Shown: piece by piece, positions 17,314 to 37,692 of the stretch | Layout of the letters: each line of letters opens with the position of its first letter | Numbering within the stretch: the first letter of the stretch is position 1 | Source of the DNA: Thermodesulfobium acidiphilum | Lineage (GTDB): Bacteria; Thermodesulfobiota; Thermodesulfobiia; Thermodesulfobiales; Thermodesulfobiaceae | Direction: 5' to 3' | NCBI RefSeq assembly: GCF_003057965.1 | Contig: NZ_CP020921.1 | Location: 1,065,001 to 1,129,000 of the forward strand | DNA: 64,000 nt | Notes under the pieces: model-generated | What the model was told of the DNA's origin: nothing | Seen by the model: only the letters and a program-made list of their open reading frames with translations | Database searches by the model: none | Program-made: the position numbers and the translations under genes

Positions 17314-17964
17314 TTACTTCTTTAACTCTTCATACCACAAAGCATTGTGCTTCATTACATACTCTTCATCGATCAATCCATTACCAAGCATTGTGCCAAG
17401 TTCCTTTCTAGAACTAGGATTAATTGCTCCAAGGTAAAAGTGAACAATAATTGCCGATCCTAAAAACGTGCCGCAAAAAACGTGTATAATAATTGCTATC
17501 TGTATTAAATAACCTGGGAATGATGCATAAAAAAACATCATTGAACCTGTAAATCCAAGGCATAATGAAAATATAATTATTATCCAACCTAAAAGCTTTT
17601 GACCTGCATTGATCTTGCCCTGTGGAGGTATTTCCTTTGCCTTTATGATTGGAGAAAGATATCCTCCAAAAACTTTCATCCATTTTTTGTCTTCAGGTGT
17701 GAAGGTACTAATTAATTTTATAAAACCTGAAAACAATTTCAAATTAAATACTGCATACAAAAGAGGCAGCAAAAGGTAAAAAAAGCCAAGATATTTGTGA
17801 ACAAAAGCAGCATTTCTAAGGCTCCCAAATGGAAAGCTCATAGCGTTCATCAAAGGATAAAATAATGATAAACCAGTCCATAACATGATTATAAATGTTA
17901 TAAGATGTAACCAATGAAATATTCGCGTAGCTTTTTTGTGTTTTTCAATCATCCTCTTAGCCAT
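17314..17964 (-). CDS. Formate dehydrogenase gamma subunit (cytochrome b), system 1
   Basis: The 216-residue FdnI-type membrane cytochrome b has four hydrophobic segments (about 15-33, 50-72, 118-142, 150-172). Histidines sit in the usual heme positions (RIFHWLHLITF near the start; IIHVFCG and IVHFYLG near the end). It anchors the dehydrogenase and passes electrons from the beta subunit to the quinone pool. Its ATG overlaps the beta stop by one base (TAATG). About 70% of it looks identical to the system 2 gamma subunit by eye, showing duplication of the whole operon. Confidence 0.93.
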   Translation of the reverse strand: MAKRMIEKHKKATRIFHWLHLITFIIMLWTGLSLFYPLMNAMSFPFGSLRNAAFVHKYLGFFYLLLPLLYAVFNLKLFSGFIKLISTFTPEDKKWMKVFGGYLSPIIKAKEIPPQGKINAGQKLLGWIIIIFSLCLGFTGSMMFFYASFPGYLIQIAIIIHVFCGTFLGSAIIVHFYLGAINPSSRKELGTMLGNGLIDEEYVMKHNALWYEELKK

Positions 17965-18743
17965 TATTGGTCACCTCCTTTATTCCCAGCTTGTATAAGT
18001 CTGTGAAGAAATACCAAACCAGCAGCGCCACCTAACATAACTAGACCAAGCGGATGCATTATGTTTTTCCAGATAAGTGTATTTACTGGAAAGACAGGAT
18101 CTTTTGGCAAACCGTATTTTTCAGGTTCATATTTAAGTATAGATAATACTCCTAGTCCCCCAAGTATGTTTTCACCATAAAGATTGGCTTCTGTAAACCC
18201 TTCTTTTTTCAAAACTTCGACTCTTTCTTTCCCCTGTTTTACAAGTTCATCTCTTTTGCCAAAATAAAGCGCTCCACCTAAACATGCCTTTACACAAGCT
18301 GGAATAGAGGTCTCATCAGACTTATTGCCTTCAATAACTCTTGAATAACACATATCACATTTATTTACAACTTTTCCAATTTGAGGAATTCCAAAGGGAC
18401 ATGCGCTGTGACAATATCCACATGCTATACACTTATTGTCATCAAAAGCTACTATTCCGTTCTCTGCCTGAAAAAGAGCTCCACTTGGGCAAGCTTTGAC
18501 GCAAGCAGGTTCTCCGCAATGAAAGCATTGATATTTTAAAAAGTTAAAGTTCTGTCCTTCAGTAAAATCATCATAAAAGTTTATAATCATACGAGTATGT
18601 GGATTCAAGTCTGGGGGATTAGTATAAAAACCTGTAAAAGTCGTAGGATCGGTCTTCTGATCGTTCCATTGTTTACAAACAGATTGACAACCTCTACAAC
18701 CCATACATTTAGAAGAGTCGAACATATAGGCTACTCTTTCCAT
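17964..18743 (-). CDS. Formate dehydrogenase beta (iron-sulfur) subunit, system 1
   Basis: The 259-residue protein carries four ferredoxin-like cysteine clusters: CMGCRGCQSVC near the start, CFHCGEPACVKAC, CIACGYCHSAC and the C-x2-C...C-x3-C set around NKCDMCYS. This predicts four [4Fe-4S] clusters wiring the alpha subunit to cytochrome b. A C-terminal hydrophobic helix (IMHPLGLVMLGGAAGLVFLH) anchors it, as in FdnH. The fourth cluster reads CVKACLGGA, where most homologues, including the system 2 copy, have C-P. It starts one base after the alpha stop. Confidence 0.94.
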   Translation of the reverse strand: MERVAYMFDSSKCMGCRGCQSVCKQWNDQKTDPTTFTGFYTNPPDLNPHTRMIINFYDDFTEGQNFNFLKYQCFHCGEPACVKACPSGALFQAENGIVAFDDNKCIACGYCHSACPFGIPQIGKVVNKCDMCYSRVIEGNKSDETSIPACVKACLGGALYFGKRDELVKQGKERVEVLKKEGFTEANLYGENILGGLGVLSILKYEPEKYGLPKDPVFPVNTLIWKNIMHPLGLVMLGGAAGLVFLHRLIQAGNKGGDQ

Positions 18744-18744
18744 T

Positions 18745-21741
18745 TTAAGCCCTCCTCAAGTTAATCATCAAAGCTTTTGATTCCTGGATCTCAGAGGTCG
18801 GATCTCCTACGTTTTCAGTCATGAGATTTGCTGAAAAAGATTCATTTTTACCACTGTCAGGATCGATTCCTACAAAACCCCAATGCCATGGTATGCCTAC
18901 TATATGAAACTTTTTGCCATCAATTATAACTGGTTGCAATCTGGATGTTACACATGCCTGAGCCTTTACTTTTCCTCTAATAGATTCAAGCTCCACTTTA
19001 TCTCCATTTTTAATTCCAAGTTTCTTTGCTAATTCAGGATCTATTTCAGCAAATACCTGTGGCATTTCTTCAACCAAAATCGGGATCTTCCTGGTTATAC
19101 TTCCACTTTGATAGTGTTCAGTCAATCTATAAGTAGTACATATATGTGGATATCTTGGATCGTTTAAAGGAGCGTACTTATCAACATCTGATTTGAAAAT
19201 TATAGCTACAGGATTATTTTGTACAGGACTTAAAAGATTTTTCACAGGAGCCTCAATGGGTTCATAGTGTTCAGGAAAGGGACCATCTTTAACCAGCCCT
19301 GAAGGCACAAAGAGCCTTCCTCCACCTTCAGGTATCATAATAAAAGGGGCATCTCCACCTGGAGAATTAGGTGCCTTTGTTGGAAGAAAATCTGGTACAT
19401 CTGGACCTGTCCATTTTCCTTGGGCAGCATCCCATTTAATAACAGTTAGTTTTGAATTCCAGGGTTTACCCTCAAGATCACAGCTAGCCCTATTATAAAG
19501 AATTCTTCTATTTACAGGCCATGACCATGCCCATTCAGAGTTAAGCCCTATTCCCTCTTTTTCAGGTTTTCTTCTTGCGGCTAAATTTCTAGTCGGTGGG
19601 TACACTCCTGAATATATCCAACAACCACATGCTGTAGATCCATCATCCTTAAGAGCAGCAAAGCTAACTAACTGTTTTTTTGTAGCAACCTCAAAACCAT
19701 TAATCTCTTTTAAAACAGAATCGATATCATACTTATCTCCACCATAACCCCATGTTAAGTTAAGTATGCCTTCAGGTGAAGGAGTAGAAGGATCGTCTTT
19801 AAACTGTTTTTTTAGACCAATAACCAGCTTATTTAAAATAACCATATCTTCTTTTGATTCATACATAGGTTCTATTGCCTTATATCTCATTTGAAGCCAT
19901 CTAGAAGTATTAGTAGCTGAACCGTCCTTTTCAACAAACGATGAAACTGGTAACATAAAGACTTCAGTTTTTATGTCTTTTGGAGCTACTCCAGGCCTCT
20001 TCCAGAAATTTGCAGTCTCAGTTTCAAAAAGATCTGCAACCATAAGCCACTCAAGGTTTTCTAAAGCTTTACCAGTTTTATCACCAAGAGGGCTTGATAC
20101 TAGTGGATTTTGCCCCCAGATCATCATTCCCTTTATCCCCTCATTTTTATACAGATTATCCCAGATATACATCCATGAAGCTGGTTTGGACCACTTTGGA
20201 AGCCAATCATAGCCAAAATCATTTTCTTTTGTAGCTGCGTCTCCAAACCAGGCCTTAAGCATGCTAACAGCAAATTTTGGTGCATTAGACCAATAACAAT
20301 CAGGAAGTGTGATTTTTTTTAGATACTCTTTAAAATTTGGATGAAGTTTCTCGTTGGGAGCGGCCAAATAACCAGGCCATGAGTTATAAAGAAGAGCCAT
20401 ATCAGTAGAACCCTGGACATTGGTCTCCCCTCTCATAGCATTCACTCCACCACCAGCCATACCTATGTTCCCTAACAAAAGTTGAATAATACAAAAAGCT
20501 CTGATGTTTTGTGTACCAATTGTATGCTGAGTTAATCCCATCGCATACATCAATGTGCCAGATTTATCTGGCGCACCAGTTGAGCTATATAACTTTGCTA
20601 TTTCAAGGAATGTCTCTTTTTTTATACCTGTAACCTTTTCTACAACTTCAGGCGTATACCTGGAATAATGCAATTTCATTTTTTGAAACACGCAATTTGG
20701 ATCTTGAAGGGTCATATCTCTTAAAGGCTTATTATCTGGTCCGGTTTGATAAGCCCAGCTTTCATAATTATACGTTTTGCTCATCATATTCCATCCTGAA
20801 AAGTATCCATCCTTAAAGTTGTATTCAGGCTTTAAAAGATAAGAAGCGTTTGTATAGTGTTTTACATAAGTTTCCTGGTATTTATTATTCTGAATAATGT
20901 AGTTTATCAAACCTCCGAAAAAGGCTATATCAGTTCCAGGCCTTATTTGTGCATAGATATTTGAAAGTGCAGAAGTTCTAGTAAATCGAGGATCCACAGA
21001 AATGACTTTTCCACCGCGTTCTTTACATATATTAATGTATCTCGCACTGCCAGGATGATTTTCGGCAGGATTTCCACCACATATCATGATCACATCAGAA
21101 TTTTTTACGTCTATCAGGGAATTTGTCATTGCCCCTCTACCAAAGCTTGGCCCCAAGGCAGTAACAGTAGAAGAGTGACAAATTCTTGCCTGATGCTCCA
21201 AATATACAATGCCCAGCGCCCTGGCAAACTTAGAAAACAGATAGCATTCATCTGTTCCGTGAGATGCTCCGCCAAGCATAGCAAGTCCCTCAGTTCTATT
21301 TACAGTTACTCCGTTTGAAGTCTTTATAAATGAACTATCCCTGGTTTTTTTGATTCTTTTGACAAGCTCAGAAATAGCCCAATCCCAGCTTTTCTCTTCC
21401 CACTTGTCAGAACCAGGAGCCCTATACATTGGTTTTTTTAATCTAAGTGGACTATCGTAAACGCTAAAACAGGTAGAACCCTTTGCACAAAGACCACCTT
21501 CACTATTCGGATTGTCAGGATCTCCCTCGACATTTACTACCTTACTGCCCTTTGAATAGACTAAAAGACCACAGCCAACTCCGCAATAAATACATACAGA
21601 ATTTGTAACCTTGGTATCCTTCAGTTTAAAGGGTATGCTTGCATAGGCAACCTTTGGCACAGCTACATTGCCATCGAATACCATCATTGCAGCACTAGCA
21701 AAGGAAAACTTAAGAAAATCCCTTCGATTAAATTTGTCCAT
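18745..21741 (-). CDS. Formate dehydrogenase alpha subunit, cysteine form, Tat-exported (system 1)
   Basis: The 998-residue molybdenum/tungsten bis-MGD enzyme oxidises formate to CO2 on the periplasmic side. It has a twin-arginine signal (NRRDFLKFSFASA) and a [4Fe-4S] motif C-x2-C-x3-C...C at about 50-85. The metal-ligand position in ARICHSST is Cys188 (TGT, 21180-21178), followed by the catalytic His. MGD-binding segments (GGNPAENHP, MIWGQNP) and a C-terminal dinucleotide domain are present. It is collinear with the selenocysteine paralogue at 24377-27370. It heads a three-gene operon; AAGGAG precedes the ATG and is partly covered by a potential 5' hairpin. Direction in vivo (formate oxidation or CO2 reduction) cannot be told from sequence. 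Confidence 0.95.
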   Translation of the reverse strand: MDKFNRRDFLKFSFASAAMMVFDGNVAVPKVAYASIPFKLKDTKVTNSVCIYCGVGCGLLVYSKGSKVVNVEGDPDNPNSEGGLCAKGSTCFSVYDSPLRLKKPMYRAPGSDKWEEKSWDWAISELVKRIKKTRDSSFIKTSNGVTVNRTEGLAMLGGASHGTDECYLFSKFARALGIVYLEHQARICHSSTVTALGPSFGRGAMTNSLIDVKNSDVIMICGGNPAENHPGSARYINICKERGGKVISVDPRFTRTSALSNIYAQIRPGTDIAFFGGLINYIIQNNKYQETYVKHYTNASYLLKPEYNFKDGYFSGWNMMSKTYNYESWAYQTGPDNKPLRDMTLQDPNCVFQKMKLHYSRYTPEVVEKVTGIKKETFLEIAKLYSSTGAPDKSGTLMYAMGLTQHTIGTQNIRAFCIIQLLLGNIGMAGGGVNAMRGETNVQGSTDMALLYNSWPGYLAAPNEKLHPNFKEYLKKITLPDCYWSNAPKFAVSMLKAWFGDAATKENDFGYDWLPKWSKPASWMYIWDNLYKNEGIKGMMIWGQNPLVSSPLGDKTGKALENLEWLMVADLFETETANFWKRPGVAPKDIKTEVFMLPVSSFVEKDGSATNTSRWLQMRYKAIEPMYESKEDMVILNKLVIGLKKQFKDDPSTPSPEGILNLTWGYGGDKYDIDSVLKEINGFEVATKKQLVSFAALKDDGSTACGCWIYSGVYPPTRNLAARRKPEKEGIGLNSEWAWSWPVNRRILYNRASCDLEGKPWNSKLTVIKWDAAQGKWTGPDVPDFLPTKAPNSPGGDAPFIMIPEGGGRLFVPSGLVKDGPFPEHYEPIEAPVKNLLSPVQNNPVAIIFKSDVDKYAPLNDPRYPHICTTYRLTEHYQSGSITRKIPILVEEMPQVFAEIDPELAKKLGIKNGDKVELESIRGKVKAQACVTSRLQPVIIDGKKFHIVGIPWHWGFVGIDPDSGKNESFSANLMTENVGDPTSEIQESKALMINLRRA

Positions 21742-21752
21742 TCATTTTACTC

Positions 21753-21794
21753 CTTGATAGTGAATATATTTTTTAATTTCAAAGCACTATCAAG
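21753..21794 (-). promoter_or_regulatory. 5' hairpin overlapping the fdhA1 ribosome binding site
   Basis: There is a perfect ten-base inverted repeat, CTTGATAGTG and CACTATCAAG (21753-21762 and 21785-21794), with a 22-base AT-rich loop. In the minus-strand transcript the 3' arm runs into the AAGGAG ribosome site just before the fdhA1 ATG. Folding would hide part of that site. It could be a translational control hairpin, or alternatively a DNA dyad for a regulator. No equivalent precedes the Sec paralogue. Confidence 0.5.
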
Positions 21795-21813
21795 CTTATA
21801 ATAGCATACTAAA

Positions 21814-21835
21814 TTGATAAAATAATCATTATCAA
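21814..21835 (-). promoter_or_regulatory. Fur-like or FNR-like dyad upstream of fdhA1
   Basis: A seven-base inverted repeat TTGATAA/TTATCAA is separated by eight bases. Read on the minus strand it also matches 13 of 15 bases of the 7-1-7 Fur motif (TGATAAT-n-ATTATCA). A -10-like TATTAT lies between it and the hairpin, so a bound protein would overlap the -35 region. The regulator is not identified in the window. Confidence 0.4.
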
Positions 21836-21978
21836 ACTTAAATATTTAATAAATGACTATATGAATAAAATATTTTTATAATAGAGTGCAAAGTTTAAGA
21901 ATTTTTTAACAAAATTATCATTAAAAAATGAATTTAAAATAAAATATTATAAAAAAGACTTATTATTAATAATAAATA

Positions 21979-22764
21979 TTATTTGCTGATCCAGGAAGCA
22001 GCATAAAAAATCTTAAACCATGAGGGTTTAAAATTTAAGTCTTTTACCGAAACGTCTAAATCCCAGCTGGATAAATAAAGCAAGGGATAAAGAGGTATAT
22101 CCTCATTTTTTTCCCTCAAATCCAGCACCTTTAAATACATCCCACAAGCCTCACAAACCTCTACTCTCCATCCAGGGAGCTCATCTGCACTATAATACCT
22201 CATTGACTTTTGCTCTTCATCGGCACACACTGGACAAACTGTCCTTCTGTGTCCCCATCTCGTATAACAGGTTGAACATATCAAACTTTTTTTTCCATCT
22301 CCTTCAATAAAGCCTAGGCCAGCTCTTGATCCACAAACAGGACAAATTGGCTCATACCATTTTACAAGACTACATCCTTTAGAAAGTATTTCGCCAACGT
22401 AAGAGTAAATAGTAGAGTAGACTATTAACTTTATAAAACCAATTTTATCCTCAGATAAAGTTAGTTTATCAAATATTGGTAAATTTCTTTCATCAAACTT
22501 TACTTTTCCCTTAATTCCAAAATCGTCTTTTACAATTTTTGCTAGAAAATTTAAATCTTTTTTATATATTTTTAATTCAAACAAATCCAAATAGGCTCTT
22601 CCTTCGTTAAATACCTTTTTAAATTCTTCTGTATCAATACTTTCTTCAGGTATAAAATCTTTTATTTTTGCCAATAACTTTTCTCTACAAGAATAATATT
22701 GATTCCAAAATTCTACTACAGACTCTAATATTGGATACTTTTCAACAAACTTTATTAAATTCAT
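21979..22764 (-). CDS. fdhE: Formate dehydrogenase accessory protein FdhE
   Basis: The 261-residue cytoplasmic protein needed for activity of Tat-exported formate dehydrogenases. The rubredoxin-like zinc/iron motifs are clear: CPVCGSRAGLG, CSTCYTRW, CPVCADEE and CEACGMYLK. The N-terminal helical half precedes them as usual. GGAGG lies six bases before the ATG. It sits between the two fdh operons, same strand, separated from the upstream one by a strong hairpin, so it may have its own promoter or serve both enzymes. Confidence 0.95.
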   Translation of the reverse strand: MNLIKFVEKYPILESVVEFWNQYYSCREKLLAKIKDFIPEESIDTEEFKKVFNEGRAYLDLFELKIYKKDLNFLAKIVKDDFGIKGKVKFDERNLPIFDKLTLSEDKIGFIKLIVYSTIYSYVGEILSKGCSLVKWYEPICPVCGSRAGLGFIEGDGKKSLICSTCYTRWGHRRTVCPVCADEEQKSMRYYSADELPGWRVEVCEACGMYLKVLDLREKNEDIPLYPLLYLSSWDLDVSVKDLNFKPSWFKIFYAASWISK

Positions 22765-22853
22765 CCAAAACCTCCAGTATTATGATTAAATTTAAGAGTT
22801 TATAAAAAAACTATCAGTCAATAACTATCTAACATATTATCAAACGTTAAAAC

Positions 22854-22891
22854 ATTTGAGTGCAAAGCCAACTTTGACTTTGCACTCAAAT
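22854..22891 (-). terminator. Terminator hairpin after the fdh-2 operon
   Basis: A perfect 14-pair stem (ATTTGAGTGCAAAG at 22854-22867 with CTTTGCACTCAAAT at 22878-22891) has a ten-base loop. It lies about 50 bases beyond the gamma-2 stop, and on the minus strand is followed by GTTTTAACG, a short U-run. It probably stops or attenuates transcription before fdhE. Confidence 0.7.
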
Positions 22892-22942
22892 TAAATATTA
22901 CTAATTTCAACTTAATACTAAATCTACTTAATTTTTAAAAAC

Positions 22943-23596
22943 TTAAGATTTTTTCAACTCCTCATACCATAGAGCATTGTGATGCTTCACATAATCTTCT
23001 TCTATCATACCGCTTCCAAGCATTGTTCCCAACTCTTTATTTGATGTAGGATTAATTGCAGCTAAGTAAAAATGTACTATTACTGCAGCCCCCAAGAATG
23101 TACCACAAAATACGTGAATCATTATAGCCATGCGAACAAGTAGCCCAGGGAAAAGTGCATAATAAAACATTATCAATCCTGTTATACCGAGTAAAATTGA
23201 AAAAACTATTATTATCCAACCTAAGAGCTTTTGTCCAGCATTATATTTCCCCTGTGGCGGAACTTCATCTACCTTTATAATAGGATGCAAATATCCTCCC
23301 AACACAGAAAGCCATTTTTTATCTTCAGGCGTAAAAGTACTAATTGTTTTAAAAAAGTTAGAAAACAACTTGAAGTTCCAGGAAACATAAATTATCGGAA
23401 GAATCACATAAAACCATCCAAGATATTTATGAATAAATGCTGCGTTTCTAAGGCTCCCAAAAGTCATGCCAAGAACATTTGCCCAGGGATAAAGCAAAGA
23501 AACTCCTGTCCAAAGCATAATTATAAAGGTTATTAGATGCAACCAGTGAAAAATTCTTGTATTTTTTTTATGCTTCTCAATCTTTTTTACAGCCAC
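22943..23596 (-). CDS. Formate dehydrogenase gamma subunit (cytochrome b), system 2
   Basis: The 217-residue four-helix cytochrome b is collinear with the system 1 gamma subunit. Heme histidines are in RIFHWLHLITF, MIHVFCG and IVHFYLA. It anchors the selenoprotein dehydrogenase to the membrane and reduces quinone in the family model. The ATG shares one base with the stop of the beta-2 gene. Differences from system 1 cluster in loops. Confidence 0.93.
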   Translation of the reverse strand: MAVKKIEKHKKNTRIFHWLHLITFIIMLWTGVSLLYPWANVLGMTFGSLRNAAFIHKYLGWFYVILPIIYVSWNFKLFSNFFKTISTFTPEDKKWLSVLGGYLHPIIKVDEVPPQGKYNAGQKLLGWIIIVFSILLGITGLIMFYYALFPGLLVRMAIMIHVFCGTFLGAAVIVHFYLAAINPTSNKELGTMLGSGMIEEDYVKHHNALWYEELKKS

Positions 23597-24375
23597 TACT
23601 GTTCACCTCCCTTTTTCCCCAGGTTAAGCGCTCTATGAAGTACAACCAGGCCAGCCGCGCCTCCTAACATTATTACACCTAGAGGATGCAATATTCCTTT
23701 CCACAAACCAATGTCACTAGGAAATACAGGTTCTTTAGGAAGACCATATTTTTCAGGAGAATATTTCAATATAGCAAGAACTCCAAGTCCTCCAAGAATA
23801 TTTTCCCCATAAAGATTTGCTTCTGTATATCCTTTATTTTTTAAAACCTCAACTCTTTTTTTACCTTGCTCAACTAAATCACTTCTTTTTCCGAAATAAA
23901 GCGCTCCCGCAGGGCAACTCTTTACACATGCTGGGATAGAAGTCTTATCAGAGTCAGAACCTTCCATAACTCTAGAATAACACATATCACATTTATTTAT
24001 AACTTTTCCAATCTGAGGAATTCCAAAGGGACATGCGCTGTGACAGTATCCGCATGCTATACACTTATTTTCATCAAAAGCTACTATTCCATTTTCAGCT
24101 TGAAACAATGCGCCACTAGGACATGCCTTTACACATGCTGGGTCACCACAGTGAAAACATTGATATTTCAAAAAATTGAAATTTGGATCTGGAGTAAAGG
24201 TATCATAAAATTTTATAATCATTCTCGTATCAGGATTTAGACTTGGTGGATTGGTATATACCCCATTAAATGTTGTAGGATCGGTTTTTTGATCGTTCCA
24301 TTCCTTACAGATGCTCTGACATCCTCTACAACCCATACATTTAGAAGAATCATACATATAGGCCACTCTTTCCAT
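23596..24375 (-). CDS. Formate dehydrogenase beta (iron-sulfur) subunit, system 2
   Basis: This 259-residue protein is nearly identical in length and motif placement to the system 1 copy: CMGCRGCQSIC, CFHCGDPACVKAC, CIACGYCHSAC and NKCDMCYS, with a canonical CVKSCPAGA final cluster. A C-terminal hydrophobic helix (about 225-247) anchors it. It transfers electrons between the selenocysteine-containing alpha subunit and cytochrome b. It begins one base after the alpha-2 stop, as in system 1. Confidence 0.94.
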   Translation of the reverse strand: MERVAYMYDSSKCMGCRGCQSICKEWNDQKTDPTTFNGVYTNPPSLNPDTRMIIKFYDTFTPDPNFNFLKYQCFHCGDPACVKACPSGALFQAENGIVAFDENKCIACGYCHSACPFGIPQIGKVINKCDMCYSRVMEGSDSDKTSIPACVKSCPAGALYFGKRSDLVEQGKKRVEVLKNKGYTEANLYGENILGGLGVLAILKYSPEKYGLPKEPVFPSDIGLWKGILHPLGVIMLGGAAGLVVLHRALNLGKKGGEQ

Positions 24376-24376
24376 T

Positions 24377-27370
24377 TTAGGCCCTCCTCAAATTAATCAT
24401 CAAAGCTTTGGATTCTGGAATAAGACTTGTCGGATCTCCTACATTTTCTGTCACAAGATTTGCAGCAAAAGATTCGTCTTTACCACTATCTGGATCTATA
24501 CCCACAAAGCCCCAGTTCCATGGAATTCCAACCACATGGTACTTTTTACCATTTATTATCATAGGCTGAACTCTGGTTGTAACACAAGCCTTTGCTTTAA
24601 CCTTACCCCTTATGGACTCAAGCTCAACATTATCACCGTCTTTGATACCAAGTTCCTTTGCAAGTTCAGGATCTATCTCGGCAAAAACTTGTGGCATAGC
24701 TTCCACAGTTATAGGTATCTTTCTTGTTATTGCACCAGATTGATAATGTTCTGCAACTCTATACGTAGTACAAATATATGGATATTTTGGATCGTGAAGT
24801 GGTGCATATTTATCTATATTTGATTTAAATATCAAAGCTATAGGATTATTTTGTATAGGATTTACTTTATTTTCAACAGGAGATTCGATTGGTTCATAAT
24901 GTTCAGGAAATGGTCCATCTTTAACTATACCACCAGGAACAAATAATCTCCCTTGTCCACCAGTAAGCATGATAAAGGGCAGCGTTCCTCCAACATCTGT
25001 TGGAGCCTTTGTAGGCAAGAAATCAGGCACATCTCTTCCTACCCACTTCTTCTGTGCAGCATCCCATTTTATAACGTATTTTTCCGGATTCCATGGATTA
25101 CCTTCCAGATCGCATCCCGCTCTATTATATAAAATTCTTCTATTTACGGGCCATGCCCAACCCCATTCAGGATTAAGTCCCAATCCAGTTTTTTCTGGCT
25201 TTCTTCTCTTCGCAAGATTCCCAGTAGGAGGATACATGCCAGAATATATCCAACACCCGCTAGCCGTAGTTCCGTCATCTTTTAAAGCAGCAAAACCAGG
25301 AACTTGCTTTTTGGTAGTCACCTCAAAACCGTTAATCTCTTTAAATACTTCTTCTGCGCTATGATTATGCCCGCCATAATTCCATGTTAAATTAAGAATT
25401 GCTTCAGAATTAGGTGTAGACGGATCAGATTTTACAAGGTCTTTTATTTTATGAATAAGATCGTGCAATATTACAGAATCCTCTCTGCATTCATAAAGAG
25501 GTTCAACTGCTTTATATCTCATCTGAAGCCATCTGGAAGTATTCGTAGCTGAACCATCTTTTTCTACCATAGATGCCACAGGTAGCAAAAATACTTCTGT
25601 TTTAATATTCTTTGTATCAGCACCTGGCCTCCTCCAGAAATTAGAAGTTTCAGTCTCGAATAAATCTGCTATCATTAACCATTCTAAATTCTCGAGAGCC
25701 TTACCAGTTTTTTCGGCAAAGGGGCTGGATATCAATGGATTTTGCCCCCAGATCATCATACCTTTGATCCCTTCATTTTTATATAAATTATCCCATATGT
25801 GCATCCAGGAAGCTGGCTTTGACCACTTTGGTAACCAATCGTACCCAAAATTATTTTCCTTTGTAGCTGCATCCCCATACCATGCTTTCAACATACTTAC
25901 AATAAACTTCGGAGCGTTAACCCAATAGCTATCAGGTGCGATTGATTTCTTAATAAATTCCTGTAAGTTTGGATGAAGCTTTTCGTTTGGCGAAGGCAAA
26001 TAACCTGGCAGAGTGTGAAACAAAAGTCCCATATCAGTAGAACCCTGTACGTTAGCCTCCCCTCTCATTGCATTTACTCCACCACCAGCCATACCCATAT
26101 TACCAAGTAAAAGTTGAATTATACAAAAAGCCCTGATGTTTTGTGTACCAATAGTGTGTTGAGTTAGTCCCATAGCATAAATCAAACACCCAGACTTATC
26201 TGGTGCTCCTGTAGAAGAATAGATTTCAGCAATCTTTAAAAAAGTTTCTTTTTTCATCCCAGCAACACTTTCTACTACTTCTGGCGTATATCTGGAATAG
26301 TGTTTTGCAAGCCTTTGGAATACACAATTTGGATCTTGGAGGGTCATGTCTTTCAAGACCTTCTTATCCGGTCCTGTTTGAAATCCCCAGGTTGCATAAT
26401 TGTACATCTTTTTTGCCTCGTCCCAACCAGAAAAATGACCATCTTTGAAATCAAATTCAGGATTTAATAACCATGAAGCATTAGTGTAATTTTTAAGATA
26501 AACTTCTTGATATTTTTTGTTTTGAATTATGTAGTTAATCAATCCACCAAAAAATACAATATCGGTTCCCGGTCTTATTGGCGAATAAATATCTGAAATA
26601 GAAGAAGTCCTCGTAAACCTTGGATCTACAGATATTACTACTCCACCTGAATCTTTACACATATTTATATATCTTGCTATAGCTGGGTGATTTTCAGCAG
26701 GATTACCCCCACAAATCATAATAACATCAGAATTTTTTACATCAGTCAAAGGATTCGTCATTGCACCTCTTCCAAAACTAGGACCTAAACTGGTCACTGT
26801 AGAAGAGTGTCATATACGTGCCTGGTGTTCGAGATAGACAATTCCAAGTGATCTTGCAAACTTAGATAGAAGATAGCATTCATCAGTATCGTGAGATGCT
26901 CCTCCAAGTTGGACAAGTCCATCAGTTCTATTTACTGGAACTCCTCCAACTTCTCTAACGAAAGTTTCATTTCTTGTTTTTAAAATTCTCTTTGCAACCT
27001 CATTGATAGTCCAATCCCAGCTCTTTTCCTCCCATTTGTCTGAACCTGGAGCCCTATACATTGGCCTTTTCAATCTAAGCGGATTAACGTAAACGTTATA
27101 AGATGTTGCTCCCTTTGCGCATAGACCGCCTTCATTGTTAGGATTATCAGGATCACCCTCGATGTTTACTACCTTGCCATCTTTTGCATAAACCAATAGT
27201 CCGCAGCCAACGCCACAGTAAATACATACTGAAGGACTTACTTTAGTATCTTTTAACTTAAAAGGCTTTACAGAAGCCCTTGCAGGCACAGCAATATTAC
27301 CATCCATAACCATTGCCGCAGCCCCAGCAAATGTAAGCTTTAAGAAGTCCCTCCTTCTAAGCTTCCCCAT
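24377..27370 (-). CDS. Formate dehydrogenase alpha subunit, selenocysteine-containing, Tat-exported (system 2)
   Basis: This is one 997-residue coding region read through an in-frame UGA at 26812-26810. The N-terminal 186 codons give a Tat signal (RRRDFLKLTFAGA), the [4Fe-4S] cysteines and end LEHQARI. The UGA follows, then HSSTVTSLGPSFGRG continues in the same frame. Aligning with the system 1 subunit puts the UGA exactly at the Mo/W-ligand Cys188, so it encodes selenocysteine (Sec187), as in known FdhF/FdnG enzymes. Everything downstream is intact (GGNPAENHP, MIWGQNP, C-terminal domain). A standard gene caller would split this gene and lose the active-site residue. A short stem-loop after the UGA may be the SECIS. 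GGGAG precedes the ATG. Confidence 0.95.
26778..26812 (-). promoter_or_regulatory. Selenocysteine UGA codon and candidate SECIS stem-loop
   Basis: The UGA (26812-26810) is followed 14 bases later by the hairpin GACC-AGTTTA-GGTC, with an outer CTA/TAG pair set and an internal loop. Bacterial SECIS elements lie at this distance and have a GU-containing small apical loop. The paralogous cysteine gene has lost these pairing bases. The stem is short, so the exact element is tentative; the Sec codon itself is well supported. Confidence 0.6.
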
Positions 27371-27618: not shown

Positions 27619-28989
27619 CTATATTATAGCGCTAAAAACTATTTCAGATATCGTTGGGTGACCATAAATTATATCCCTTAGTTCTGTAATATTGACTTTA
27701 CTTTTCATTGCTACTGCCATAATATGAACTAGCTCATATGCCATAGGACCAATAAACATAGCACCAATTATAGTCCCCTCATCCGAAGTAAGTGCTTTAA
27801 AAAAACCAGAATTTTGGCCCATAATAAGGGCTTTCCCATTACCCTTAAAAAATGCTTTATAAGTTTTATAAGGAATCACTTTTGACTTTAAATCCTCTTC
27901 AGTGAATCCAATACATCCTACACCCGGATCTGTAAATACCACTCTTGGTAATAATTCATAGTTAATATTTTCAGTTTCGCCAAGTATTTTTTTAGCAACA
28001 GCTATCCCCTCTCTGGTAGCCACGTTGGCCAGCATTGGGGTTTTTATAATATCTCCTACAGCATATACACTGCTGTTATCTATGCTAAAGTCCTTCTCTG
28101 TAATTATGAAATCTCTTTCGGTTTTTGCATTAATTACTTCTAAATTCAGATATTTTGTATTGGGTACTCTTCCCACAGAAACTAATATAACATCTACAAA
28201 AATATCTTTAACTAAATTATTTTGCCTATTTTTAAAACTAACCAGCAGCTTTTCATCTTTGTTTTGAATATTGACAATCTCTGAACTCGTGTTCACAGAT
28301 ATATTTCTCTTTTTAAATTCTCTCAGAAGAGTACGCGAAACCTCATCATCTTCTAAACCCATTATCTTAGGTAAAAATTCTACAATTGTAACGTTTGAAC
28401 CGAAATAATTTAGCAATGAAGCAAACTCACAACCTACGTAACCACCACCTACAATAAGAAAATCTTTTGGTAAACTTCCCAACTTTAAAAGGCCGCTACT
28501 CGAAATAATCTTGTTTTCGTCAATAGTCAAACCAGGAAGACTCTTTGGGTATGATCCGGTCGATAAAACTATATTGTTAGCAAAATAATCAACGTTGCCA
28601 ATCCTTATAACATCATAACCAGCTAGTCTTCCTTCCCCAAAAATCATTTTAACACCTGATTTTTTCAGTCTTGAAATTACTCCCTGTCTTAATTGATACT
28701 TTTGATCCTCTAAAAGCTTAATCGCATTCGAATAATCAATGCTAAAATCTATGTTGAAAATACTCTTGTATTCTCTCATTCTGTGAATTAAATGAGCACT
28801 TTCAACCAATGATTTTACAGGAATACATCCCTCATTCAGGCATGTCCCGCCAATCTTTTCTTCAGATTTTTCTACCAAGCATACACTTTTCCCTCTATCA
28901 CCTAAATAAAGCGCACACTCATAGCCAGCTGGACCAGCACCTATAATGATCGCGTCAAATTTATTTTCCAACCTCAATTTCTCCCACAA
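27619..28989 (-). CDS. lpd: Dihydrolipoyl dehydrogenase (L-protein)
   Basis: The FAD enzyme of about 456 residues reoxidises dihydrolipoyl groups with NAD+. Seen: FAD-binding GAGPAGYECA, the redox disulfide GGTCLNEGCIPVKSL, NAD-binding VGGGYVGCEFA, AVGDI, and the C-terminal GHPTISE with the catalytic histidine. It is the last gene of the gcv/lip operon and overlaps lipA by 16 bases when started at the TTG at 28989; an internal TTG nearer the FAD motif is also possible. It most likely serves as the L-protein of the glycine cleavage system, since no 2-oxoacid dehydrogenase genes are nearby. Confidence 0.93.
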   Translation of the reverse strand: MWEKLRLENKFDAIIIGAGPAGYECALYLGDRGKSVCLVEKSEEKIGGTCLNEGCIPVKSLVESAHLIHRMREYKSIFNIDFSIDYSNAIKLLEDQKYQLRQGVISRLKKSGVKMIFGEGRLAGYDVIRIGNVDYFANNIVLSTGSYPKSLPGLTIDENKIISSSGLLKLGSLPKDFLIVGGGYVGCEFASLLNYFGSNVTIVEFLPKIMGLEDDEVSRTLLREFKKRNISVNTSSEIVNIQNKDEKLLVSFKNRQNNLVKDIFVDVILVSVGRVPNTKYLNLEVINAKTERDFIITEKDFSIDNSSVYAVGDIIKTPMLANVATREGIAVAKKILGETENINYELLPRVVFTDPGVGCIGFTEEDLKSKVIPYKTYKAFFKGNGKALIMGQNSGFFKALTSDEGTIIGAMFIGPMAYELVHIMAVAMKSKVNITELRDIIYGHPTISEIVFSAII

Positions 28990-29843
28990 GATAAATATTT
29001 TTGTGCGTTATAAGAGCTTCTTACATACGGAGCGCTTTCTACATGTTTAAAACCAAAACTTCTTGCAATCTCCCCAATTTCTTCAAATTTGTCTGGATGA
29101 ACATATTCATAAACATCAATATTCTTTAAGCTAGGCCTTAAATATTGTCCTATACTAATAAAATCACACTTAATTTTTATAAGTTTATCAAAAAGTTCCT
29201 TCAATTCATCCATCGTTTCCCCTAACCCAAGCATTATACCTGTCTTTGTAAAAATATTTTGAGATAATTTTTTAGCATTTTCTAATACATATAAAGACGT
29301 TTCAAATGAAGCACCCTTTCTAATGGCGTAAAGTCTTGGAACAGTTTCCAGATTATGGCCAAAAATCTCAGGCTTTAAGTCAATTACTGTTTTAATCGAA
29401 TCAATATTTCCCTTGAAATCTGGTACTAAAACTTCGATTGTAACATCTGGAATAAGATTTCTTATAGCCTTAATAGTATTAGCAAAGTGAAGGGCTCCGC
29501 CATCAAAAACATCATCTCTAGTAGGGGATGTGATTATCACATGAGAAAGATTCAATCTTTCTACGGCCTGAGCTAATCTTTCTGGTTCATATGGATCTAA
29601 TGGTTTTAATAAATTTTTATCTTTAGCTTTTTTCACATTACAAAATTCACAAGATCTCGTACACACATCACCCATTATTAGAAAAGTAGCATGTCTATTA
29701 CTAAAACATTCTGATATATTAGGACATCTTGCTTCTTCACAAACAGTATTTAACTCTAAGTCTTTTAACAAGGTTCTTGTATAATTCTCTGTTCTTTGAC
29801 AAACTCTCTTATGAAGCCACACAGGTTTCTTTTTCAATACCAT
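28974..29843 (-). CDS. lipA: Lipoyl synthase
   Basis: The 289-residue radical-SAM enzyme inserts two sulfurs into octanoyl groups on lipoyl domains such as GcvH. It has both required cysteine sets: CEEARCPNISEC (auxiliary cluster) and CTRSCEFC (radical-SAM cluster). It also has the GLGET segment and the C-terminal serine (VRSSY) that ligates the auxiliary cluster. Length is normal. Its 5' end overlaps the lipM-like gene by 35 bases. Confidence 0.96.
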   Translation of the reverse strand: MVLKKKPVWLHKRVCQRTENYTRTLLKDLELNTVCEEARCPNISECFSNRHATFLIMGDVCTRSCEFCNVKKAKDKNLLKPLDPYEPERLAQAVERLNLSHVIITSPTRDDVFDGGALHFANTIKAIRNLIPDVTIEVLVPDFKGNIDSIKTVIDLKPEIFGHNLETVPRLYAIRKGASFETSLYVLENAKKLSQNIFTKTGIMLGLGETMDELKELFDKLIKIKCDFISIGQYLRPSLKNIDVYEYVHPDKFEEIGEIARSFGFKHVESAPYVRSSYNAQKYLSCGRN

Positions 29844-30597
29844 CCCTATTCCAACTTTCAGATAAATATTTTTTCTCTCTTAAAAGTGAGACAAGCTTAA
29901 TTTCTTCTTTTGTAAGCTCGCAAAAATCTAAATCAACCTTCATTTCCTTGCTAAAAAATGTGGCAAGACCTTTGAGTGCAGTTTCATAAGAAATATCATG
30001 AACCCAATCTTGTAGTGAATTTCCATGTTCATAAGGTTTAGAAAGATTTTTTCTACTCTTTACTGGAATAGAGCCATGTTGGAATATTACATCGTGAGAA
30101 CGCTTTTGTGCATTTCCACCAACTTTTTGTCCATCTATTAAAATATCATATTTTTCTTTTCCTTGATAACACAATATTGGATTTTTATCTGATTCAGTGC
30201 TCTCACATTCACATGCCCATTTAGCATTCAGATGTAAAGAATTGTAAAATTCTAATACAAAGGAGGTTAACTTTTTATAGGAGTCAATTACAGACAAATT
30301 ACCTAAGTGTTCTTGAGAGCAAACAATAGAGTATGAGATTTCTTCATAATGATACAAGGCATTCCCCCCCGTCAACCTCCTAATGAAAAATTCTTCTTCC
30401 TGAGACAAAAAAACCTTGTTAATATCAGATATTTTTTGAAACCTCCCCACCGAAAGAACCGAAGGATACCAAAAATAAAATCTTATTACAGGTTCTCTTT
30501 TCTTCAAGAAGGTTAAATATAAAGCTTCGTCAATGGCCATATTGTAATCGCCACTTAATGGAGACGAAACTATAAATCTAAACCTCCTGCCAGACAA
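29809..30597 (-). CDS. lipM: Octanoyltransferase/lipoate-protein ligase family protein (LipM-like)
   Basis: The 262-residue protein of the BPL/LplA/LipB superfamily contains RRLTGGNALYH and GQKVGGNAQKR followed by FQHGSI. A cysteine precedes the binding loop (PILCYQGKEKYDI), as in LipM octanoyltransferases, which use a catalytic Cys. This suggests transfer of octanoate from acyl carrier protein to GcvH, with LipA then adding sulfur. A lipoate ligase (LplA) role remains possible. The TTG start at 30597 has AAGG eight bases upstream. An AGGAGG just inside the frame could point to a slightly later, noncanonical start. Confidence 0.82.
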   Translation of the reverse strand: MSGRRFRFIVSSPLSGDYNMAIDEALYLTFLKKREPVIRFYFWYPSVLSVGRFQKISDINKVFLSQEEEFFIRRLTGGNALYHYEEISYSIVCSQEHLGNLSVIDSYKKLTSFVLEFYNSLHLNAKWACECESTESDKNPILCYQGKEKYDILIDGQKVGGNAQKRSHDVIFQHGSIPVKSRKNLSKPYEHGNSLQDWVHDISYETALKGLATFFSKEMKVDLDFCELTKEEIKLVSLLREKKYLSESWNRDGIEKETCVAS

Positions 30598-30683
30598 CTT
30601 AATTCCCTTCCTTCTTAAAAAATAAGATATATAAATTATACTTTTTTATTAAATCTTTAATATTATACAGCTTATTCCAAAAT

Positions 30684-32123
30684 TCATAGTCTAGCCTTGA
30701 CAATCAAATCTTTAGCAGCCTTTGTTTCATCTGGTCTTGAAATGACAGTTGTTTTAGGAAACTCTTTAAAGGCTTCAGGATTTTGTTCTGCCAATTTAAC
30801 TGCATCTATAATAGCATCTACGAATTTATCAAGAGTTTCCATAGATTCGGTTTCAGTTGGTTCAATCATAAAGGCTTCCTTTACTATCAATGGAAAATAT
30901 ATTGTAGGTGGGTGAAATCCCCTATCTATAAGGAACTTTGCAAAATCCAGAGCACTTGCGCCTTTTTTAGCCATTTCAGAAAGAGAAAATACACATTCGT
31001 GCATACAAGTTCTATCATACGGAAGTTTCAAATAATTTTTAAGTCTATTCATTACGTAATTTGCATTTAATACTGCCATTTCTGCAGAATATTTTATTCC
31101 ATCAGTCCCAAGAAGTTTAATATATAGATATGCCTTTAAGATAACAGCAAAGTTTCCAAAGAATGATGAAACATGTCCAATTGATTTATCTGAATTTGAT
31201 ACTACAACTAGAGAATCATCTTCTCTTTTTACTCTAGGAATAGGGAGAAAATCTTCAAGAAATTTCTTAACTCCTACAGGCCCAGCTCCAGGACCTCCGC
31301 CACCATGAGGAGTACCAAAAGTCTTGTGCACATTTACGTGGATAACGTCAAATCCAAGATCACCAGGTCTGACTTTGCCCATAATTGCGTTAAGGTTAGC
31401 ACCATCATAGTACATTAATGCTCCTACAGAATGAGCTAAATCGGAAATCTCTTTTATGTTTTTCTCAAACAAACCTAAAGTATTAGGACATGTCATCATT
31501 ACTGCAGCCACATCTGTATCAAGATGTTTTTTTAACTCATCTACATCCATTTCCCCTTCGCTATTTGAAGGTATTGTAACTACTTCATAGCCTACCATAG
31601 ATGCACTTGCAGGATTTGTGCCGTGTGAAGAATCAGGCACAATAACCTTGGTTCTCTTCGAGTTTTTTGATTTGTGATAACTAGAAATAATCATAATACC
31701 AGTTAATTCACCGTGAGCTCCAGCCATCGGACTAGTAGTAGCACAGTCCATTCCAGTTATCTCACATAATATGTCCTGAAAATCTGAAATAAGCTCAAGA
31801 GCACCTTTACACCTATTAATACTATCTGGCAAAATAGACAAAAAAGGATGGAGATTTAGAAATTCAGGAATATTCGAAGCTTTTTCCAAAATTTTTGGAT
31901 TGTATTTCATGGTACAAGAACCCAACGGATAAAATTGAGTATCCACAGAAAAATTTAATCTGGAAAGATTAATAAAATGTCTTATAAGATCTAACTCTGA
32001 TATCTCAGGCAAATTAAGTTCTGAGCGACAAAGCTCATCAGGAAAATTCTTTAAATTTACATCTAATTTAGGCAAATTAAAAGACTTTCTGCCACTCTTT
32101 GATTCCTCAAATATCAATTTCAT
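30684..32123 (-). CDS. gcvPB: Glycine dehydrogenase (decarboxylating) subunit 2
   Basis: The 479-residue PLP-dependent half of the P-protein carries the PLP-lysine loop NVHKTFGTPHGGGGPGAGP. It pairs with GcvPA to decarboxylate glycine and load aminomethyl onto lipoyl-GcvH. The ATG at 32123 is chosen because GGAGG lies seven bases upstream and it overlaps the gcvPA stop as ATGA. A longer frame to 32147 adds nine residues without a better site. Length matches the two-subunit P-protein type found in many thermophiles and Firmicutes. Confidence 0.96.
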   Translation of the reverse strand: MKLIFEESKSGRKSFNLPKLDVNLKNFPDELCRSELNLPEISELDLIRHFINLSRLNFSVDTQFYPLGSCTMKYNPKILEKASNIPEFLNLHPFLSILPDSINRCKGALELISDFQDILCEITGMDCATTSPMAGAHGELTGIMIISSYHKSKNSKRTKVIVPDSSHGTNPASASMVGYEVVTIPSNSEGEMDVDELKKHLDTDVAAVMMTCPNTLGLFEKNIKEISDLAHSVGALMYYDGANLNAIMGKVRPGDLGFDVIHVNVHKTFGTPHGGGGPGAGPVGVKKFLEDFLPIPRVKREDDSLVVVSNSDKSIGHVSSFFGNFAVILKAYLYIKLLGTDGIKYSAEMAVLNANYVMNRLKNYLKLPYDRTCMHECVFSLSEMAKKGASALDFAKFLIDRGFHPPTIYFPLIVKEAFMIEPTETESMETLDKFVDAIIDAVKLAEQNPEAFKEFPKTTVISRPDETKAAKDLIVKARL

Positions 32124-33442
32124 AATATGGCCTCCAAAATAGAACATACATTATCAATGTTATACTTTGACATCTTTTCAGTTACATTTATCAAAATATC
32201 ATTTTCTGAACCACCAAACAGATACAATGGGATTCCAAAGGCAATATTTTTTGATAATAATGTTGAAAAAATCTCTTTAGCAGGTCTATTAAATTTAACA
32301 ACAAATTCGTTAAAAGTAGTTGCATTATTCTTTATAACCAACCCTATCTCTATCAACTTTTTCTTCATGTATTCACTTTTACTAAAATTTATCAGAGCCA
32401 ATTCCTTTAAGCCGCTCTTTCCAAGAGAACAAAGGTAAACCAAAGCTCTTAAAGCACAAAGGCCCTCGTTAGAGCATATATTAGACGTCGCACGATGTCT
32501 TTTTATGTGTTGTTCTCTAGCCTGAAGAGTTAAAACATAAGCTCTTTTGTTATTTCTGTCTAATGTTTCACCCACAATCCTGCCAGGCATATTTCTAATG
32601 TACACCTTTTTGGTTACCAAAAAACCAAAATATGGCCCTCCAAATGAAAGCGGATTGCCAAGTGATTGTCCTTCACCAGTTGCAATATCTACTCCCATCT
32701 TACCTGGCGTTTTTACAATTCCTAAAGAAATAGGATATACGCTTGATACAGCCAAAATATTCTTTTCATGAGCAAAATTTATAAGATCAGTCCAATCATG
32801 AACACTCCCATAAAAAGTTGGATTCTGGAAAACAAAACAAGCCACATTAGAGTCAAGCAAAGACTTTATTTTTCCAAAATCTGGCTCAATTTCTTCTGTC
32901 TCAACTTCAATTAATTCGTATGGCAAGAATTTTAAATACGTCTTGACTATGTTTCTATATATTGGGTTAACGCTTTTGTCCATTATTATCTTTTCTCTTT
33001 TGGTGATTCTTAGAGACATCAAAACAGCTTCAGCAAGAGCAGTTCCACCATCGTAGAGAGATGCATTCGTCACTTCAAGGTCAGTCAGGTTACAAATAGC
33101 AGTCTGATACTCAAACAGCGATTGTAAAGTTCCCTGAGAACATTCTGGTTGGTAGGGTGTATAGGCAGTATAGAATTCAGATCTCGATGCAACAAAATCA
33201 ACTACACTAGGAATTATGTGATCATAGAATCCTGCACCTAAAAAGTGATATGATAACAAATTATTTTTTCTAGCCAGGTTTAAAATAAGATTGTATCCTT
33301 CATATTCAGAAATCCCTTTGCCCAATTTTTTGAAATCAATTTCTTCAACTGGGAGCTCTTTGAATAAATCATCTACTTCATTTACATTACAAACAGAACA
33401 CATTTCCCTTATATCTTCAGGTGTATGTGGACAAAAATTCAT
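32120..33442 (-). CDS. gcvPA: Glycine dehydrogenase (decarboxylating) subunit 1
   Basis: The 440-residue structural half of the split P-protein begins MNFCPHTPEDIREM and contains the family segments HFLGAGFYDH, TAYTPYQPECSQGTLQ and RAREQHIKR-like EQHIKRHRATSNICSNEGL. It lacks the PLP lysine, as expected for this subunit. It begins two bases after the gcvH stop and its stop overlaps gcvPB by four bases. Confidence 0.96.
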   Translation of the reverse strand: MNFCPHTPEDIREMCSVCNVNEVDDLFKELPVEEIDFKKLGKGISEYEGYNLILNLARKNNLLSYHFLGAGFYDHIIPSVVDFVASRSEFYTAYTPYQPECSQGTLQSLFEYQTAICNLTDLEVTNASLYDGGTALAEAVLMSLRITKREKIIMDKSVNPIYRNIVKTYLKFLPYELIEVETEEIEPDFGKIKSLLDSNVACFVFQNPTFYGSVHDWTDLINFAHEKNILAVSSVYPISLGIVKTPGKMGVDIATGEGQSLGNPLSFGGPYFGFLVTKKVYIRNMPGRIVGETLDRNNKRAYVLTLQAREQHIKRHRATSNICSNEGLCALRALVYLCSLGKSGLKELALINFSKSEYMKKKLIEIGLVIKNNATTFNEFVVKFNRPAKEIFSTLLSKNIAFGIPLYLFGGSENDILINVTEKMSKYNIDNVCSILEAIL

Positions 33443-33444
33443 TT

Positions 33445-33819
33445 TTAGTCCAGCTCCTTAATATAATTTTCATATGATGCCTTATCCATAAGATTTTTAA
33501 GCTCACTGGTGTCAGAAATTTCCACCTTAACTATCCAACCTTCTTCTTCTGGACTCTTATTTATAATTTCAGGTTCATTTTCCAACCTACTATTCACTTC
33601 AATTATCTTCCCGCTTACAGGAGCATATACATCGCTAGCTGCCTTTACTGACTCAATAGTACAGAATATACTAAACTGTTTGATTTCAGTACCAACTTCC
33701 GGCAATTCAACGTAAGTAATGTCTCCCAACTGATGCTGTGCGTAATCTGTAATACCAACTATTCCTACATTGTTATCTATCTCTAACCACTCGTGATCTT
33801 TTGAATAATATCTTGACAC
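33445..33819 (-). CDS. gcvH: Glycine cleavage system H protein
   Basis: The 124-residue lipoyl carrier begins (M)SRYYSKDHEWLEI. The lipoylated lysine is Lys59 in IESVKAASD, with the usual YAPVSGKIIEVN after it. It shuttles aminomethyl and reducing equivalents between P, T and L proteins. It starts at GTG with AGGAGG upstream. The lipM-like and lipA genes needed to make its cofactor are in the same operon. Confidence 0.96.
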   Translation of the reverse strand: MSRYYSKDHEWLEIDNNVGIVGITDYAQHQLGDITYVELPEVGTEIKQFSIFCTIESVKAASDVYAPVSGKIIEVNSRLENEPEIINKSPEEEGWIVKVEISDTSELKNLMDKASYENYIKELD

Positions 33820-33851
33820 AGATACTCCTCCTTTAAAGTATTAATTTTATT

Positions 33852-34943
33852 TTATTTTCTAAGAGATCCATTTTTATAAAACGGTATCTTTTCAATAACA
33901 GCTTTAATTTTTACCCTATCTTGAGACAATTCTAAAGCTGTGTTCTCACTGCTATATTGTGGTTTAACATAGCCCATACCAATCCCTTTACCTAGTGATG
34001 GAGAAAAACCTCCACTAGTAACATATCCAATGTCCATACCATCTTTAAATATCCTGTAATTGTGTCTAGGAGCCCTTCTACTATCACAAACAAAGCCTAC
34101 TCTTATTTTTTCTAAATTAGCTTCTTTTTGTTTCAAAAGAGCTTCCTTACCCACAAAATCTTTATCAAAGTGAACAAAATAGGAGAGATCGGCCTCTAAT
34201 GGTGTAGTGTCTTCATCAAGATCATTGCCATACAAAGGATAACCCATTTCAAGTCTTAACAAATCTCTTGCACCAAGTCCAGCAGGCTTTATTTTTTCAT
34301 CTTTAAGTAAATCGTTCCAAACATCAACACAAATAATTGATGGCATATATATCTCAAAACCAAGTTCTCCAGTATATCCAGTTCTTGAGAGTATCACTTC
34401 TTGATCCATAAGACTGCTTTTGGTAAAAGAAAAATATTTTAATTCATCAATAATCCCTGGGAAATATTTTCTTAATAGATCTCTCGAAAAAGGCCCTTGA
34501 ACGTCAAGCTTTGAGGTAGTTTCAGACCTATCTTCAAAAACAAAATTACCCTTTAAAACGCTTTTTATAACATTAAAATCGTTATCCTTTGTCCCAGCAT
34601 TCACTACCATCATAAGCTCATCAGCGCTTAATCTGTAAACAATACAATCATCTACAATTCCTCCTCTTTCATTCAAAATTAGGCCATATCTGCACTTTCC
34701 TACATTAATAGTGCCAATTTTAAACGAAAAAGCCATCTCAATATTTGTATTTACCAAATCACCCTTAAAGTAAAATTCACCCATATGGCAGGTATCAAAA
34801 AGTGCAACGCTTTTTCTGCATTGCATGTGCTCTTCGATTATACTTTCATATTGAATTGGCATATTCCAACCACCAAAAGGTACCATTTTCGCTTTTAGCT
34901 TAATGTGCTCAGCCTCAAGCGGTGTCGATTTCAAATTCTGCAT
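33852..34943 (-). CDS. gcvT: Glycine cleavage system T protein (aminomethyltransferase)
   Basis: The 363-residue folate enzyme moves the methylene group between H protein and tetrahydrofolate. Typical segments: VPFGGWNMPIQY, DTCHMGEF, the GYTGELGFEIY loop, LGARDLLRLEMGYPLYG and the C-terminal GYVTSGGFSPSLGKGIGMGY. GAAGGTG precedes the ATG. Only 12 bases separate it from rdgB. No glycine riboswitch leader can fit there, so control must come from further upstream. Confidence 0.96.
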   Translation of the reverse strand: MQNLKSTPLEAEHIKLKAKMVPFGGWNMPIQYESIIEEHMQCRKSVALFDTCHMGEFYFKGDLVNTNIEMAFSFKIGTINVGKCRYGLILNERGGIVDDCIVYRLSADELMMVVNAGTKDNDFNVIKSVLKGNFVFEDRSETTSKLDVQGPFSRDLLRKYFPGIIDELKYFSFTKSSLMDQEVILSRTGYTGELGFEIYMPSIICVDVWNDLLKDEKIKPAGLGARDLLRLEMGYPLYGNDLDEDTTPLEADLSYFVHFDKDFVGKEALLKQKEANLEKIRVGFVCDSRRAPRHNYRIFKDGMDIGYVTSGGFSPSLGKGIGMGYVKPQYSSENTALELSQDRVKIKAVIEKIPFYKNGSLRK

Positions 34944-37469: not shown

Positions 37470-37692
37470 TTTCATCCCTCCTTAGATTTAAAATACAAAA
37501 AATATTATAAACTAAAAATTATTATTTGTTAATAAAAAATTTTATATAACTATTATCAATCTTTTCGACTCAATTTACAATTGAAATTAAATAAGAATTT
37601 TTTATTTTCAGACCAATTTTTAGTATTAATTAATATATTAAAATAATCATAATATTAAATTACATTAAATTTATACTGAATTGGAGATAATT

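Follow-up and report, generated by a model that had tools for sequence, protein, structure and literature searches.

What is the role of two complete formate dehydrogenase operons that stand side by side in the thermophilic, acidophilic sulfate reducer Thermodesulfobium acidiphilum, one with an in-frame TGA at the codon where the other has cysteine? The window is a 64,000-nucleotide stretch of the genome (contig NZ_CP020921.1, positions 1,065,001 to 1,129,000), and the within-genus comparison covered this genome and three congeners (G001, G002, and G003), four Thermodesulfobium species in all. The likely answer from sequence comparison is a tandem duplication of an FDH-N operon in which one copy kept selenocysteine (Sec) and the other came to carry Cys, with the Cys enzyme as a selenium-free reserve. 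Sec/Cys formate dehydrogenase pairs are an already known kind; the new details are the tandem duplication of the whole FDH-N complex, a conserved leader element present only at the Cys operon, and a conserved hairpin between the Sec operon and fdhE. No description of this pair was found in the literature on Thermodesulfobium with selenium or formate dehydrogenase. The locus contains the following features.

24377-27370, reverse strand: fdhA-Sec, formate dehydrogenase alpha subunit, 997 residues, Sec187, Tat signal RRDFLK; frame open through the TGA
26810-26812, reverse strand: in-frame TGA, Sec codon 187 of fdhA-Sec, conserved in the congeners G001 and G003
26757-26815, reverse strand: bacterial SECIS element (Rfam RF01989 SECIS_3)
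23596-24375, reverse strand: fdhB-Sec, iron-sulfur subunit with a membrane helix at the C-terminus (PF13247, weak PF09163, TIGR01582)
22943-23596, reverse strand: fdhC-Sec, cytochrome b subunit (PF01292, TIGR01583)
22854-22892, reverse strand: conserved RNA hairpin in the gap between the Sec operon and fdhE (folding and four-species comparison)
21979-22764, reverse strand: fdhE-like accessory protein, a single gene amid the two operons (PF24859, TIGR01562)
21798-21806, reverse strand: possible extended -10 TGNTATTAT of the Cys operon (four-species conservation; tentative)
21754-21793, reverse strand: inverted repeat TTGATAGTG-N22-CACTATCAA, Cys operon only, abutting the ribosome-binding site (four-species alignment)
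18745-21741, reverse strand: fdhA-Cys, 998 residues, Cys188 (TGT) (TIGR01553; 77% identity to fdhA-Sec)
17964-18743, reverse strand: fdhB-Cys, iron-sulfur subunit (profile matches; ~81% identity to fdhB-Sec)
17314-17964, reverse strand: fdhC-Cys, cytochrome b subunit (profile matches; ~72% identity to fdhC-Sec)

The seven genes are co-directed on the reverse strand in the order fdhA-Sec, fdhB, fdhC, fdhE, fdhA-Cys, fdhB, fdhC, which places the operons head to tail. The fdhA-Sec frame is broken by the TGA at 26812-26810 alone, and the predicted mass of FdhA-Sec is ~111 kDa. A preliminary description of this DNA had proposed adjoining Sec and Cys alpha-beta-gamma operons whose site codons are one base apart. 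The open reading frames bear this out, with TGA as codon 187 of one alpha gene and TGT as codon 188 of the other. The span given there, 18745-27370, holds both alpha genes but omits the beta and gamma genes of the Cys operon, which extend down to 17314. The expectation that a gene caller would break the Sec copy also proved correct: a plain ORF caller returns 24377-26797 and 26810-27370 as two pieces, a warning for annotation since standard gene calling breaks the Sec gene. The sequence makes this anatomy of the two operons, and the decoding of the TGA as Sec, almost certain.

Profile searches place both alpha subunits in the FDH-N alpha family. FdhA-Sec scores 1187 bits and FdhA-Cys 1196 bits against TIGR01553 (cut-off 814), and an RRDFLK Tat signal is found at the N-terminus. 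TIGR01582 is the best family for both beta subunits at 219-226 bits (226 for fdhB-Sec), below its curated cut-off of 335; the Cys motifs and a weak PF09163 match are present. The gamma subunits match PF01292 and score 99 and 112 bits (112 for fdhC-Sec) against TIGR01583, which has a cut-off of 116. The fdhE product matches PF24859 and reaches 45 bits against TIGR01562, below the cut-off of 188. In FDH-N, a Tat-bearing alpha subunit, an iron-sulfur beta subunit, and a cytochrome b gamma subunit form a periplasm-facing formate:quinone oxidoreductase. The alpha-beta-gamma layout here is that of FDH-N, and the Tat motif on alpha combined with the iron-sulfur beta and cytochrome b gamma subunits therefore argues for the same type of enzyme. 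In this autotrophic sulfate reducer, both membrane-bound enzymes would pass formate electrons to the quinone pool. To our knowledge, no tandem Cys operon copy accompanies Escherichia coli FDH-N or Desulfovibrio FdhAB. These enzymes (1kqf; 6sdr and 1h0h) give full-length alpha matches and have Sec at the aligned site in the 1h0h alignment, where FdhA-Sec residue 187 pairs with the Sec (X) in the Desulfovibrio gigas structure. Cultured Thermodesulfobium species oxidize H2 or formate with sulfate (PMC8539903; also PMC11471286), which makes formate dehydrogenase central to the genus. One more molybdopterin-binding oxidoreductase domain protein (PF00174) is encoded at 37681-38280 on the forward strand. 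The reverse strand from 27619 to 34943, just ahead of the Sec operon on its upstream side, encodes dihydrolipoamide dehydrogenase, lipoyl synthase, a lipoate ligase-like gene, and glycine cleavage P1, P2, and T, and the presence of formate dehydrogenase beside glycine cleavage genes recalls the reductive glycine pathway.

The reading of the TGA as Sec was examined through its RNA context and the decoding machinery. A match to the SECIS family RF01989 lies directly after the TGA at 26815-26757 (34.4 bits, E = 1.6e-4). Its counterparts in G001 and G003 score 38.5 and 37.0 bits, and the E values across the three species range from 1.6e-4 to 3.4e-5. All three scores are below the Rfam gathering score of 63, so the SECIS call rests on position and conservation besides score. 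In the upper stem of the G003 element an A-U pair is replaced by G-C through changes on both sides (GACC/GGUC to GGCC/GGCC), which keeps the pairing while the encoded residue changes from Thr to Ala. The Rfam search returned no SECIS match in any Cys copy. The 1.77-Mb single-contig genome encodes a tRNA-Sec with a UCA anticodon and selB directly behind it, selA lies ~7 kb beyond the window, and selD is also in the genome, each above its curated cut-off. The preliminary description had proposed a search for this machinery as a check on the Sec assignment, and all four components were found. Its refuting case, a sequencing error at the TGA, is excluded by the two congeners that carry both the TGA and the SECIS. 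If the TGA were instead a stop, the Sec copy would be a pseudogene or encode a short protein and the Cys copy alone would work. The break made by the gene caller and the SECIS scores under the gathering score are compatible with a stop, but this explanation is barely credible and was rejected: dN/dS in the Sec copy is 0.02-0.03 across the full gene in three species, the TGA and SECIS are conserved, the Sec machinery is complete, and Sec homologues make up 75 of 83 outgroup rows. An in-frame TGA at a conserved Sec/Cys site, a SECIS, and a complete selA, selB, selD, and tRNA-Sec set identify, on comparative grounds, the TGA at 26810-26812 as a genuine Sec codon. The selD gene (L139:937-1998) has its own in-frame TGA in the motif CAGUAAK and is a second, independent selenoprotein case; no Rfam SECIS was found in it at E up to 1. 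Four selenoprotein genes are listed for a Thermodesulfobium genome in PMC12013277, and the text beside that list does not discuss the Sec/Cys pair.

The origin of the pair was traced through the four species. The operon order is the same in G001 and G003, and in G002 as far as its contig extends; that contig begins just after the Sec site, and its Sec-copy row is truncated before the site. In a maximum-likelihood tree of 91 FdhA sequences, the eight rows of the genus fall into one Sec-copy clade and one Cys clade of four rows each (100% and 99% support), and these are sisters, grouped apart from all other sequences with 100% support. Every Sec row in the set has exactly one in-frame TGA. Most of the 83 outgroup rows carry TGA at the site (75, with a Cys codon in the other 8), which argues that Sec is ancestral and the Cys copy derived. 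Cys at this site arose several times elsewhere in the tree too. At 72-82% identity, the beta and gamma paralogues are far closer to each other than to their best outside matches (~42% for beta and ~33% for gamma), which argues that the whole operon was copied. The alpha tree and these identities support the single operon duplication put forward in the preliminary description. Its statement that the flanking codons are near-identical does not hold: 16 of 24 differ (12 on each side, site excluded), mostly at third positions, and it is the residues around the site that are nearly identical in both alpha subunits. Over the whole gene the two fdhA copies share 73% nucleotide identity with an NG86 dS of ~2.3 and a dN of 0.16, and the saturation of synonymous sites indicates that the duplication is old. 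Species comparisons give a dN/dS of 0.02-0.04 for each copy, which argues that purifying selection has kept both functional. As paralogous genes in one genome that are both under selection, they constitute a Sec/Cys isoenzyme pair. The ancestral Sec operon would have undergone a tandem duplication on the stem lineage of the genus, before the four species split; one copy would have kept Sec, and the other would have replaced it with Cys and shed its SECIS. The tree and codon counts make this duplication, with Sec as the ancestral state, very likely. The pair is conserved across a genus that is almost alone in its phylum (Thermodesulfobiota). The first ~160 codons of fdhA-Cys (21260-21741, reverse strand) stand out for their synonymous-site conservation between the two species pairs, where the fraction of identical codons is 0.72-0.85 versus 0.57-0.59 in the rest of the gene. 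This suggests recombination between lineages or constraint at the DNA level.

By analogy with known pairs, the two operons probably let the bacterium go on using formate once selenium is depleted. With selenium, SelB, tRNA-Sec, and the adjacent SECIS would decode the TGA to give the Sec enzyme. Without selenium, translation would halt at codon 187, and the Cys operon would supply the selenium-free enzyme from its own start region. The Sec enzyme would work faster and be used by preference, with the Cys enzyme as a reserve for low selenium. Selenium-dependent switching of the two operons is somewhat favored on the same analogy. The low dN/dS in both copies would also be expected if both enzymes were produced together and differed by function or metal (Mo versus W; formate oxidation versus CO2 reduction). 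The gamma subunits have diverged more than the beta subunits (72% versus 81% identity), and the nearest solved relatives are Desulfovibrio formate dehydrogenases, which hold tungsten. Such a division of labor is nevertheless rather unlikely: the residues near the active site are almost the same in both enzymes, they differ most clearly in the catalytic ligand itself, and the leaders differ sharply. With one membrane complex present in adjacent Sec and Cys versions, the locus is a clean natural setting for direct comparison of selenium's benefit to formate dehydrogenase.

The analogy draws on three known systems. The fdhF pair of Treponema primitia responds to selenium with less fdhF-Cys transcript and with more fdhF-Sec transcript past the SECIS (Matson et al. 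2010, summarized in PMC6288185). As far as that summary describes them, these are, like the present pair, bacterial Sec/Cys formate dehydrogenase paralogues with a SECIS in the Sec copy; the T. primitia FdhF belongs to a cluster resembling hydrogen-dependent CO2 reductase and its genes lie 14 genes apart, whereas complete operons for Tat-exported alpha-beta-gamma enzymes stand in tandem here. In Acetobacterium woodii, FdhF1 and FdhF2 likewise represent one catalytic subunit in Sec and Cys forms, but they work in a soluble complex, while here the whole membrane complex is duplicated (PMC6288185). Methanococcus maripaludis has parallel sets of Sec and Cys isoenzymes, and HrsM represses its Cys operons at adequate selenium by binding intergenic DNA, with the sensing step unknown (PMC11097638). 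This system differs in being archaeal, in involving hydrogenases and other enzymes, and in lacking a Cys isoform of formate dehydrogenase (PMC11097638). The literature on Sec/Cys pairs yielded no account of how bacteria sense selenium to switch them.

The leader of the Cys operon is where separate control would be exerted. The upstream regions had been described as strongly different; the sequences do part just upstream, but the last ~20 nt at the ribosome-binding site and start (AAGGGAGTGAAATGAATGGGGAA) are shared. In the 40-bp inverted repeat (21793-21754), 38 of 40 columns are invariant in four species versus 90 of 200 further upstream, and both arms are perfect in all four. The repeat is absent before the Sec operon. 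The exact TTGATAGTG-N22-CACTATCAA occurs once in each of the four genomes, always before the Cys operon, and a search for exact arms with 8-30 nt spacing found none besides the Cys leader in any of them. With 22-nt spacing and up to 3 mismatches, all extra matches had 3 mismatches and a backward control was similar in two genomes; these matches are weak and scattered, so no regulon is definable. Folded as RNA, the repeat has an energy of -10.9 kcal/mol (z = -2.4). It could serve either as an operator or as a leader hairpin, and covariation has no power to separate these because the arms do not vary. A few bases upstream, TGNTATTAT is conserved in the four-species alignment and is tentatively assigned as an extended -10, which would place the transcript start at the repeat. 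A simple promoter scan did not pick up TGNTATTAT, and the promoter and terminator scans performed at chance level. The Rfam families gave no match in either leader or in the gamma/fdhE hairpin.

A conserved leader element confined to the Cys operon fits separate control of the two operons, which would act through the inverted repeat; the signal could be molybdenum, tungsten, formate, or other. It is distinctly unlikely that the 40-bp repeat overlapping the probable transcript start is a dedicated single-operon selenium-status element, acting as operator or as leader RNA, a bacterial sensing mechanism not yet described. It is quite possible that the repeat is a mere general promoter or mRNA-stabilizing hairpin, partly conserved by a recently exchanged tract and unrelated to selenium. 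The unusual conservation of the first 160 fdhA-Cys codons between species pairs is consistent with such a tract, and a 9-bp repeat turns up in ~1.3% of shuffled 60-nt leaders. Against this, 38 of 40 columns are invariant, as compared with 0.6 of codons identical across all four species at the start of the neighboring gene and 0.45 of positions further upstream; the arms are perfect in every species, and the genomes contain no other copy. A transferred tract may contribute to the conservation of the repeat, yet the element exceeds the level of the gene start. The search for bacterial selenium sensing gains a specific starting point in the conserved element of the Cys operon.

The hairpin between the Sec operon and fdhE (22892-22854) folds with an energy of -24.8 kcal/mol (z = -6.6), and genome searches located it in the four species at this place only. 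Where the species differ, pairing is kept through G-U on the sense strand and not on the other strand, which points to a hairpin that acts as RNA in the fdh transcript. It perhaps limits read-through or protects the upstream message. A classical terminator identity was not assigned to it, as a clear T-run is missing. G002 and G003 each have two copies of the hairpin in the gap separating fdhC-Sec from fdhE (loci L136 and L137), and between the copies lie two inserted small genes that by eye resemble a HicB-HicA toxin-antitoxin.
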